From assembly GCA_030041495.1 (NCBI GenBank), contig JASHNT010000037.1, positions 1 to 42,970 of the forward strand: a stretch of DNA of 42,970 nt, written 5' to 3'. Below are positions 1,843 through 40,034 of the stretch, one piece after another. Source of the DNA: Bryobacteraceae bacterium (GTDB lineage: Bacteria > Acidobacteriota > Terriglobia > Bryobacterales > Bryobacteraceae). Below the pieces are notes generated by a model. That model saw nothing but the letters and a program-made list of their open reading frames with translations, had not been told where the DNA came from and made no database searches. Both the position numbers and the translations under genes were made by a program. How positions within the stretch are numbered: the first letter of the stretch is position 1; each line of letters begins with the position of its first letter.

Positions 1843-3072
1843 ATGAAAATTTTCATCATTGGAAGCGGCGGCCGCGAGCACGCGCTGGCGTGGAAGCTGG
1901 CAGGCGAGGGGCATGAGATTTTTGCGGCTCCGGGCAATCCCGGGATTGCGCAGGTTGCGAAGGTCATTCCGGGTGCGGATTACTTCGCCATCGCGAGCAG
2001 CGTTAACCCGGATCTAACTGTGGTCGGGCCGGAAGCGCCCCTGGTGGCGGGGGTGGTCGATCAATTTCGCAGCGCGGGCCGCGCGATTGTGGGACCCGAT
2101 CAAGCCCATGCTCAGATTGAAGGCAGCAAGATTCACTCGAAAGAGCTGATGCAGCGGTTAGGGATTCCGACGGCTCGCTTCGCGCGCATCGACACGGCTG
2201 AGGACGGGCTTGCCGCACTGGCGCGGTTCGATTATCCGGTGGTCGTGAAGGCGGATGGTCTGGCGGCGGGCAAGGGCGTGATCGTTGCGCAGCATCGCAG
2301 TCAGGCGGAAGCCGCGGTGCGAACGCTGGGACCAAGGCTGATCATCGAAGAATTTCTCACCGGCGAAGAAGTCAGCTTCATCGTGTTATGCGATGGAAAA
2401 ACGGGGCTGCCTCTCGAAGCAACTCAAGATCACAAGACCGTCGGCGATGGCGACACCGGACCGAACACCGGCGGAATGGGGGCATACTGCGACGGCCGCA
2501 TTCTTTCTTCGGCCGACGCGGAGAAGGTGATGGCAACGGTGATCAACCCGGTCATCGACGCCACGCGATTCACAGGATTTCTGTATGCAGGCCTGATGAT
2601 GACCCAGGCTGGTCCGAAGGTGCTGGAGTTCAATGTACGCCTGGGCGATCCGGAGACCCAACCGTTGATGCATCGCATGGAAGGCGGGTTCGGCGAAGTG
2701 CTGATGCGCGCGGCGACGGGATCATTGAATGGGGCGGAACTGCGCTGGAAAGCCGAGCCTTCGGTGTGCGTGGTCATGGCGGCTGCCGGATACCCGGGGC
2801 AGGTGCGGACGGGCGACGCGATCAGTGGAATTGAGGATTGCGGCGCGGTGGTGTTCCAGGCAGGGACCCGTTTGGGAGCGAAGGGACTCGAAACCGCGGG
2901 CGGGCGAGTGCTGGGAGTTACAGCTTCGGGCGGGGCTTTACGCGCCGCGGTCGAGAACACCTACGCAGCGGCCGAAAAGATTCACTTCGAGGGTATGCAT
3001 TACCGCCGCGATATCGCTCGCAAAGGGCTCAAGCGCTGGGACATTGGTACAATCAAGACTTCGGGGACGTAG
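1843..3072 (+). CDS. purD: Phosphoribosylamine--glycine ligase (GAR synthetase)
   Basis: A 409-residue ATP-grasp enzyme that joins glycine to 5-phosphoribosylamine in purine synthesis. It opens with the family signature MKIFIIGSGGREHALAWKL; the ATP-grasp core shows VVVKADGLAAGKGV, EEFLTGEEVSF, GPNTGGMGAY and EFNVRLGDPETQ. The start ATG at 1843 is fixed by that conserved N-terminus. The usual PurD ending corresponds to HYRRDIARKGL; here about a dozen extra residues (KRWDIGTIKTSGT) follow. The stop TAG is nucleotides 8-10 of the downstream tRNA-Arg gene, so gene and tRNA overlap by 10 nt. The extension looks like read-through of a lost stop codon into the tRNA promoter. Confidence 0.97.
   Translation: MKIFIIGSGGREHALAWKLAGEGHEIFAAPGNPGIAQVAKVIPGADYFAIASSVNPDLTVVGPEAPLVAGVVDQFRSAGRAIVGPDQAHAQIEGSKIHSKELMQRLGIPTARFARIDTAEDGLAALARFDYPVVVKADGLAAGKGVIVAQHRSQAEAAVRTLGPRLIIEEFLTGEEVSFIVLCDGKTGLPLEATQDHKTVGDGDTGPNTGGMGAYCDGRILSSADAEKVMATVINPVIDATRFTGFLYAGLMMTQAGPKVLEFNVRLGDPETQPLMHRMEGGFGEVLMRAATGSLNGAELRWKAEPSVCVVMAAAGYPGQVRTGDAISGIEDCGAVVFQAGTRLGAKGLETAGGRVLGVTASGGALRAAVENTYAAAEKIHFEGMHYRRDIARKGLKRWDIGTIKTSGT
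3048..3053 (+). promoter_or_regulatory. Putative -10 of the tRNA-Arg gene, inside purD
   Basis: TACAAT lies 9 nt upstream of the first nucleotide of tRNA-Arg, within the extra 3' codons of purD. No clear -35 is visible at 16-18 bp. If used, transcription would start about 2-3 nt before the mature tRNA 5' end. Confidence 0.35.
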
Positions 3073-3139
3073 CTCAGATGGATAGAGCGGTCGCCTCCTA
3101 AGCGACAGGTCGGCAGTTCGAATCTGCCCGTCCCTACCA
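3063..3139 (+). tRNA. tRNA-Arg (anticodon CCU)
   Basis: A 77-nt cloverleaf: acceptor GGGGACG/CGTCCCT (first pair G-U), D arm GCTC/GAGC, anticodon stem GTCGC/GCGAC with loop CTCCTAA, variable AGGTC, T arm GGCAG-TTCGAAT-CTGCC, discriminator A and encoded CCA. The anticodon CCT reads AGG codons. Nucleotides 1-10 lie inside purD, whose TAG stop is tRNA positions 8-10. Confidence 0.97.
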
Positions 3140-38457: not shown

Positions 38458-38782
38458 AGGAAGAATAACCAGAAACAACAAAAGGAGCAGTGGTCCGGGC
38501 GGCCCATCATAAGAATCTCTACGAGCGCCATCGTCTTGCGCTTCACGCGCTGAGCCGTGCTCTCAGGCACTGTGCTCAATTCTCCGGCGCTTGCCGATCC
38601 TCAACCCCATCAAGGCCGTCCGGTCACCGCTCCCTTACTCTTGCCGGGTTCTATCTGGAGAGCCTCCTTTGCAATCGCACTCTTTCTGGTGCAATCGTGA
38701 GGCCGCGGTTGTGGCGTCTCTTGATGATTGAGAATAGGTGACGGGCGCCGCAGATTGCGCGTTATGGCTGGGTGAAAGCTGG
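38458..38782. other. Non-coding stretch between the BON gene and tRNA-Val
   Basis: About 325 bp. No convincing gene: frames here either lack starts or run through tRNA-Val in antisense or sense. GCAATCG occurs twice near 38671-38697 around a small GCAC/GTGC hairpin; nothing else stands out. Confidence 0.4.
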
Positions 38783-38859
38783 TGGTGGGCGCGCAGGGAC
38801 TCGAACCCCGGACCCCCTCGGTGTAAACGAGGTGCTCTAACCAACTGAGCTACGCGCCC
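38783..38859 (-). tRNA. tRNA-Val (anticodon UAC)
   Basis: Read on the minus strand: acceptor GGGCGCG/CGCGCCC, D arm GCTC/GAGC, anticodon stem CCTCG/CGAGG with loop TTTACAC (anticodon TAC, reads GUA and probably other GUN codons), variable GGGTC, T arm CGGGG-TTCGAGT-CCCTG, discriminator A and encoded CCA. 77 nt. Positions 1-10 lie inside the aminotransferase gene, whose TAG stop is tRNA positions 8-10. A GATACT -10-like hexamer lies 10 nt upstream. Confidence 0.97.
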
Positions 38860-40034
38860 GACTCCTCTAAGTATCTCTTAAGTCGCTCAAGCGCCGCCTC
38901 CAGCATGTTCTTGCCGGAGCCGTAGCACAGGCGCACGCTGCCCTGGCCGCCCGCTCCAAAGGCCACGCCGGGCGCGAGGCCGACTCCTGTTTCGAGCAAC
39001 AGGCGCTTGCAGAAGGCGAAGGAATCGGCGATGCCCTCGATCTCCGGAAAGAGGTAGAACGCGCCTTCGGGAACCGGAACGCTAATCCTTGGCATGGAGT
39101 TGAGCGCGCCCAGGCACAGGTCGCGATTTTCGCGCAGGCGGGCGAGCAGTTCCTGTAACGACGCTTCGCCGTGTTCCAAGGCTGCCTCTCCGGCCTTTTG
39201 CACGAAGGCGACGGGACAGGAGACCAGGAATTCGTTGAGGCGCGAGGCGCGGGCGATAAGGTCGCGTCGCGCGGTAAGCCAACCGAGCCGCCAGCCGGTC
39301 ATGCACCAGGCTTTGGAAAACGATTGGATGACGGCAACGGCGTCATCCCGGGTGCACAGGCGGAGAATGGATGGCGCGACGCATTCTTCCAGCGCGGCTC
39401 CGGAGTAGTACAGGCGTTCATAGACTTCGTCGGCGACCAGCCACAACCTATGCCGCCGGGCGAAGTCGAGCAGGCGCTGCTGATCCTGCTGGGTCGCAAC
39501 CCAGCCCAGAGGGTTCGAGGGCGAGGTGTAAAGCAGGAGCCGCGTGCGCGGAGTGACTGCGGCTTCGAGAGCGTCGAAGTCGATCGCGTAAGCGCGGCCG
39601 TCGCGTGGCTGGGCGATCTGCTTGACCACGGCGTGAGACATGCGCAGAATCGCCGAGCCGTTGGGCCAGGCGGGCGTGAGCACCAGAGCTTCATCGCCGG
39701 GATCGACCAGGCAGCGCAGCGAAACCGAGAGCGCCTGCACTCCGGAGGCGGTGACGGCCATTTCGGCCGATGGATCGAGTGCGACGCCATGCAGCCGATG
39801 GGTGTATCGGGCGATAGCTTCGCGCAGCGAAGGAAGGCCGGCGTTTTCGGTGTAATATGTGAAGCCTTGGGCCAGGGCTTCTTCCGCGGCGCGCTTGATA
39901 AATGCGGGCGTGGGAAGATCGGACTCGCCGAAATACAGCCGGTAGACTCCTTTCATCTGCATCGCGATTTCCGCCAGCTCACGCACGCGGGAATCGGGCA
40001 CGGCCAGAGCGGATGCGGCGACGCGGGCGGACAT
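38850..40034 (-). CDS. PLP-dependent class I/II aminotransferase
   Basis: 394 residues of fold type I. The PLP-binding Lys241 lies in QSFSKAWCMTGWRLGW; YTSPSNPLGW (Asn174) and LVADEVYERLYY (Asp202) are the other cofactor contacts, and VRLCYGSG near the end holds the carboxylate-binding Arg. It resembles aspartate/aromatic aminotransferases; the amino donor and acceptor are not defined. ATG at 40034, 18 bp from the divergent holB. Its last ten nucleotides are the first ten of tRNA-Val, and its TAG stop is tRNA U8-A9-G10. The C-terminal helix LERLKRYLEESGA has no separate stop before the tRNA. Confidence 0.95.
   Translation of the reverse strand: MSARVAASALAVPDSRVRELAEIAMQMKGVYRLYFGESDLPTPAFIKRAAEEALAQGFTYYTENAGLPSLREAIARYTHRLHGVALDPSAEMAVTASGVQALSVSLRCLVDPGDEALVLTPAWPNGSAILRMSHAVVKQIAQPRDGRAYAIDFDALEAAVTPRTRLLLYTSPSNPLGWVATQQDQQRLLDFARRHRLWLVADEVYERLYYSGAALEECVAPSILRLCTRDDAVAVIQSFSKAWCMTGWRLGWLTARRDLIARASRLNEFLVSCPVAFVQKAGEAALEHGEASLQELLARLRENRDLCLGALNSMPRISVPVPEGAFYLFPEIEGIADSFAFCKRLLLETGVGLAPGVAFGAGGQGSVRLCYGSGKNMLEAALERLKRYLEESGA

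Follow-up and report, generated by a model that had tools for sequence, protein, structure and literature searches.

Stop codons at nucleotides 8–10 of downstream tRNAs in a Bryobacteraceae genome: probably a short, tolerated gene overlap

The window analysed here is the whole stretch of 42,970 nt at positions 1–42,970 of contig JASHNT010000037.1 from Bryobacteraceae bacterium (GCA_030041495.1). ARAGORN identifies only two tRNAs in it, tRNA-Val(tac) and tRNA-Arg(cct), and each is entered by the end of a protein gene lying upstream on the same strand (Table 1). The 3′ end of the first of these genes, encoding an aminotransferase, reads CTT AAG AGA TAC TTA GAG GAG TCG GGC GCG TAG. Its final ten bases, GGGCGCGTAG, are nt 1–10 of tRNA-Val and comprise the third base of a Ser codon, a Gly codon, an Ala codon, and a TAG that coincides with nt 8–10 of the tRNA. 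A first-pass annotation of the sequence had claimed precisely this overlap of 10 nt, and the coordinates of the ORF and of the ARAGORN prediction agree on it. The second gene, purD, ends in GGT ACA ATC AAG ACT TCG GGG ACG TAG, of which the last ten bases are nt 1–10 of tRNA-Arg. An overlap of 10 nt follows for any gene that enters a TAG-type tRNA in this frame. tRNA-Val is the only carrier of the UAC anticodon among the 45 tRNAs found in the draft genome.

Table 1. Features at the two gene–tRNA overlaps of the window (positions count from the first letter of the window)
Feature	Positions	Strand	Remark
purD, phosphoribosylamine-glycine ligase	1843..3072	+	TAG stop 3070-3072
-10-like element TACAAT before tRNA-Arg, within the purD frame	3048..3053	+	sequence
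tRNA-Arg, anticodon CCU	3063..3139	+	single among the 45 tRNAs found
purD/tRNA-Arg overlap, 10 nt	3063..3072	+	sequence
tRNA-Val, anticodon UAC	38783..38859	-	ARAGORN
Aminotransferase/tRNA-Val overlap, 10 nt	38850..38859	-	sequence
PLP-dependent class I/II aminotransferase, PRK06108-like, 394 aa	38850..40034	-	TAG stop 38852-38850
Weak -10-like hexamer GATACT, 3′ end 10 nt before tRNA-Val	38870..38875	-	by eye

The aminotransferase and purD are real genes. The protein of the former matches Aminotran_1_2 (Pfam, E=8.6e-59) and exceeds the cut-off of the NCBIfam family PRK06108 (496.8 vs 422 bits), and that of the latter matches GARS_A (Pfam, E=4.7e-57). The PRK06108 match extends to residue 391 of 394 and to profile position 394 of 396, so that the aminotransferase reaches its natural C-terminus.

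The same geometry occurs a third time in the genome. The draft assembly contains 45 Rfam tRNA matches, of which two, at 34.2 and 30.8 bits, are weak, and ARAGORN also returns 45. We checked all frames entering a tRNA from upstream and followed those of at least 300 nt. On contig C8, the gene of thymidylate kinase (tmk; PF02223, E=1.5e-45) has its stop codon at nt 8–10 of a tRNA with anticodon CAU. Three unrelated genes of this genome (aminotransferase, purD, and tmk) therefore stop at this position, in 3 of its 45 tRNAs. Among the other entering frames of at least 300 nt, a single one (L045) outscores its rival frames, narrowly, and the rest were excluded on codon score. L045, which would end with TAA at nt 8 of the tRNA-like match of 30.8 bits, was dropped because it scores 0.03 per codon and the tRNA is doubtful. 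The expectation of the first-pass annotation that the pattern recurs is thus borne out by a third unrelated gene with identical geometry on another contig, and by the purD case, which is common to four genomes (see below).

To place the aminotransferase overlap among its homologues, we searched 61 genomes and obtained 30 loci, 20 with at least 40% identity, counting the one from this genome, and 10 at 32–34%. Of the 29 other loci inspected, one (L063) is cut by the end of its contig, and a tRNA overlap is absent from all 28 readable ends. Most homologues of at least 40% identity continue for no more than about five codons beyond the alignment (13 codons in L054 and 10 in L056). Since the family profile matches to residue 391 of 394 and most homologues end nearby, the tRNA overlap appears to have lengthened the aminotransferase hardly, if at all. 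The nearest homologue, from genome G008, is 78% identical over the aligned part and is followed 1286 nt downstream by a tRNA-Val(UAC). This tRNA differs from the present one in its 5′ half, and blastn (E 1e-3) aligns neither the tRNA nor its flanks with those found here, so that a common ancestry of the two tRNA-Val neighbourhoods gains no support. A deletion or a move may have joined the aminotransferase and tRNA-Val in this genome. For tmk, 36 genomes were searched and 30 loci inspected; none of the 29 other loci, three of them with less than 400 nt of downstream sequence, has a tRNA directly downstream.

For purD, a search of 36 genomes gave 30 inspected loci, 19 from the same genus and 11 from outside it. 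Within the genus, tRNA-Arg(CCU) lies directly downstream of purD on the same strand in 14 loci and on the opposite strand in one, and no such tRNA lies within ~1.5 kb in the other four; outside the genus, none of the 11 loci has a tRNA-Arg within the fetched flank. Relative to the tRNA, purD ends at +10 in four of the 14 same-strand pairs (this genome, G008, G009, and G012), at -5 in four, at -12 in two, and at -14, -20, -24, and -60 in one each, and so stops before the tRNA in 10 of 14. In all four overlapping genomes the protein is extended by ten codons after the residues KRW, with the pattern xxxTIxxxGT. The TI is encoded by the ACAATC of the hexamer region (Table 1) and the GT by the acceptor strand of the tRNA, so that the extension reads as a translated putative tRNA promoter followed by the acceptor strand. 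On a PurD tree of 30 rows, the overlap label requires two changes, and the four overlaps fall in two clades of a genus whose deep forks are unresolved; this topology is consistent with one or two origins of the overlap. A wider survey by PurD alignment, from which records near the window may be omitted, places Bryobacterales MAGs nearest among the best 80 of 593 confirmed stretches, with 64% identity in the best. Homologues that stop ahead of the tRNA, which the first-pass annotation held to count against its reading, are thus found for all three genes.

We then enlarged the sample to nine genomes and asked where genes end relative to tRNAs in general. The set comprises 420 ARAGORN tRNAs, some of them doubtful: 45 from this genome (G000), 78 from G030, 47 from G013, 46 from G020, 45 from G040, 44 from G026, 43 from G010, 39 from G012, and 33 from G008, after two weak G008 matches were left out. 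We kept the 413 tRNAs with at least 450 nt of upstream sequence, dropping seven, in a survey that sees ORFs down to about 270 nt. A same-strand ORF with coding score ends within 300 nt of the tRNA in 176 of the 413 cases, and 168 of these 176 end before the tRNA; the remaining eight include two without a family match. Counted per 10 nt, such ends number 14–18 from -60 to -11, six from -10 to -1, and zero from 0 to +9. Inside the tRNA, seven ORFs end at exactly +10, of which five are verified, and one ends at +23. The five verified genes, found at 5 of 413 tRNAs, are the aminotransferase, tmk, and purD in this genome, G008, and G012, and represent three families. The ORF ending at +23 is a tyrosine integrase of G012 (PF00589, E=2.9e-17; L198:282-1520), whose stop codon occupies nt 21–23 of a tRNA(CAU), giving an overlap of 23 nt. 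It is a counterexample to the exit at nt 8–10 and possibly belongs to an element inserted at the tRNA. Open frames of at least 300 nt enter the 420 tRNAs in 80 frame/tRNA pairs, and in most of these the score marks the frame as the shadow of a gene read in a different one. Pfam was run on eight proteins, and the other entering frames were excluded by codon score alone. Three candidates with stops at nt 8, L402 (G020), L244 (G026), and L186 (G013), have no Pfam match and were not counted as genes; the first two are the unverified ORFs of the +10 class.

A stop codon is present at nt 8–10 in 235 of the 420 tRNAs (212 TAG, 22 TAA), and exits at this position must be compared with what arbitrary entry would produce. 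We let an imaginary gene enter 408 real tRNAs at -15 in each frame, i.e., in 1224 trials. It stopped before the tRNA in 256 trials, at nt 1–7 in 13, at nt 8 in 188, and deeper in 767; the nt-8 share among the cases reaching the tRNA is about 0.195. Against this share, an exit at nt 8 in five of the six verified entering loci has P=0.0014, and in three of the four gene families P=0.025. With four entering families the numbers are very small, and the excess is suggestive. We also took all genes whose stop codon begins no earlier than -15 (n=13), a limit chosen after the distribution had been seen. Seven of them stop before the tRNA (codon score is the only basis for four of these, and the Pfam match of L017 is below its cut-off), five at nt 8, and one deeper, where 2.7, 2.0, and 8.1 are expected. 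In this set, the nt-8 excess taken alone has P=0.037, and P=0.19 by family. Deep entries, one in 13 against the 8.1 expected, have P=6.3e-5, and P=9.4e-4 when families are counted once per class (1/10). The shortage of deep entries is the strongest signal in the nine-genome sample.

These results bear on the simplest alternative, pure coincidence, under which run-on is random, a third of the frames lead to a stop at nt 8–10, and there is neither preference nor avoidance. Some of the tests fit it. Compared with the 128 ORFs ending at most 100 nt before a tRNA, the frame of the entering genes is biased for all seven ORFs (Fisher P=0.004) and for the five verified ones (P=0.025), and P is 0.13 with three families, a comparison in which the entering genes are reduced to families and the 128 are not. 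The three families in four, set against one third, have P=0.11, and the frames that enter tRNAs irrespective of coding are spread 104/115/128 over the three phases. The deficit of deep entries, which persists by family, speaks against coincidence, and we regard this explanation as unlikely. The frame count in this genome and its relatives, which the first-pass annotation had proposed as a check, accordingly gives a divided answer: families exit at nt 8 more often than under random entry, but with families counted once the Fisher test does not separate them from genes that end ahead of the tRNA.

The short stretch before the tRNAs has features of its own. The first-pass annotation had pointed to a -10-like hexamer about 10 nt before the tRNA, and by eye the hexamers upstream of the three overlapped tRNAs do end 9–10 nt before them: TACAAT (Arg), AACAAT (CAU), and GATACT (Val). 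The observation is good for purD/tRNA-Arg, where TACAAT, ending 9 nt before the tRNA, is a good -10-like hexamer, but weak for tRNA-Val: GATACT fits the -10 consensus TATAAT at four of six positions as judged by eye, TACTTA at 38868-38873 (-) is an alternative reading, and a promoter scan of 38700-39000 returned no site. Across the 413 tRNAs, TANAAT has its maximum 10–14 nt upstream (24 observed vs 0.5 expected in the bin), and only 75 of the 413 have an exact TANAAT within 40 nt. A TANAAT hexamer precedes tRNA-Arg in all 14 congeneric purD-tRNA pairs, the distance from its end to the tRNA ranging from 9 to about 40 nt. We infer from these motifs that tRNA-Arg may be transcribed independently, from a promoter internal to purD, and gene ends often seem to sit on top of an apparent tRNA promoter. 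In three congeners, G014 (L086), G001 (L091), and G007 (L092), the TAG stop of purD is the first half of a TAGAAT hexamer before tRNA-Arg, so that stop codon and likely promoter would share letters.

In our judgement, the stop at nt 8–10 is probably a short, tolerated gene overlap, which arises occasionally as a by-product of the letters of the tRNA. Upstream genes would often end in or beside the short pre-tRNA stretch that seems to hold the promoter. The position of the stop would drift, with most genes retaining one ahead of the tRNA. A gene left without a stop of its own before the tRNA, by rearrangement (maybe the aminotransferase, an order of events that we infer) or by drift of the stop (purD), would run into it. 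In one frame out of three, and in tRNAs with U8-A9-G10, such a gene would stop after two whole extra codons, at small cost to the protein. Either of the two remaining frames would carry it far into the tRNA; such deep entries are rarer than expected and have presumably been removed by selection. The letters would be kept for the tRNA itself, and their function as a stop would be secondary. Because entry is tolerated mainly where U8-A9-G10 ends the gene at once, the tRNA is a last exit and not a preferred terminator.

An extended form of this reading holds that U8-A9-G10 is a permitted last exit, deeper runs being selected out, and that in addition the gene and the tRNA are rivals for one RNA molecule, since RNase P would remove the stop codon from a transcript spanning both. 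We consider this combination rather doubtful. RNase P cleaves just before nt 1 of the tRNA, and each spanning transcript could thus either be translated or be matured into tRNA, but not both. That this choice is regulated, cleavage at nt 1 leaving a non-stop upstream message, would follow from the geometry of the overlap and the position of the cleavage site. The next in-frame stop lies beyond the tRNA for the aminotransferase (nt 248) and purD (nt 179), and inside it for tmk (nt 20), and the purD overlap occurs in four genomes. The aminotransferase and tmk overlaps are, however, absent from the relatives examined, and the apparent promoter between purD and tRNA-Arg would uncouple the two, which makes regulation of this kind very improbable. 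The proposal that upstream genes in Acidobacteria use tRNA 5′ ends as a terminator codon that is preferred and under selection can draw on the three cases in one genome and on the frequent nt-8 exit of verified entering loci, but with the overlap at 5 of 413 tRNAs only, in 0 of 28 other aminotransferase and 0 of 29 other tmk loci, and with 10 of 14 purD-tRNA pairs ending earlier, we give it hardly any credence. The same counts, with 168 of 176 ORFs ending before the tRNA and homologues mostly stopping earlier or lacking a tRNA at that place, do not sustain the suggestion of the first-pass annotation that the conserved 5′ part of tRNAs acts as a ready-made terminator as a rule.

Short overlaps between same-strand genes, in which a stop codon lies inside the next gene and a few bases are shared, are familiar in bacteria. 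The present overlaps resemble them in sharing few bases and in placing the stop in the frame of the first gene; they differ in that the downstream gene is a tRNA, whose bases are fixed by RNA structure and which carries an RNase P site. We know of no completion of stop codons by polyadenylation for the bacterial case. Among the listed titles and abstract beginnings, mostly of non-subscription literature, none describes bacterial genes that stop at nt 8–10 of a tRNA. In animal mitochondria, protein genes with their complete stop inside the following tRNA have been described: cob of Phallusia fumigata stops at position 20 of trnF, and polyadenylation of an abbreviated stop codon is assumed to complete the stop once the transcript has been processed (PMC2220002). 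The likeness to this tRNA punctuation is that a protein gene enters a tRNA and finds its first complete stop inside it, and the difference is that a full TAG at nt 8–10, on a bacterial chromosome, takes the place of the stop completed by polyadenylation. In mycobacteriophage Fionnbharth, the C-terminus of gene 37 is extended by 18 aa where a tRNA-Lys gene overlaps it (PMC10865867); this case differs from the present one in that the tRNA lies on the opposite strand, without a stop at nt 8–10.

Should larger data show the same deficit of deep entries, tRNA 5′ ends would limit the compactness of gene ends measurably, and the overlaps would be natural cases in which RNase P should yield non-stop mRNAs. 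There is also a consequence for annotation: where a protein gene overlaps a tRNA, some genome pipelines trim it or reject it, and genes of this kind would then be clipped or lost.

Two further observations concern the tRNAs themselves. This genome contains, at C17:99877-99965 (+) (L040:2001-2092), a Leu-like tRNA of class II (Rfam, 52.9 bits) that has the anticodon loop CTTTAAA and hence the anticodon UUA. Such an anticodon would pair with the stop codon UAA and might, through wobble, also decode UAG. A Leu(CAA) tRNA was not found among the 45 tRNAs of the genome, and UAA continues to terminate genes, at 5 of the 21 gene ends close to tRNAs. The UUA tRNA could be a nonsense suppressor or a Leu tRNA that has mutated. 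In the family-level relative G030, 26 tRNA matches are packed within ~7.4 kb at C1:2135037-2142440 (L477), a dense array that resembles the tRNA arrays of phages and mobile elements.
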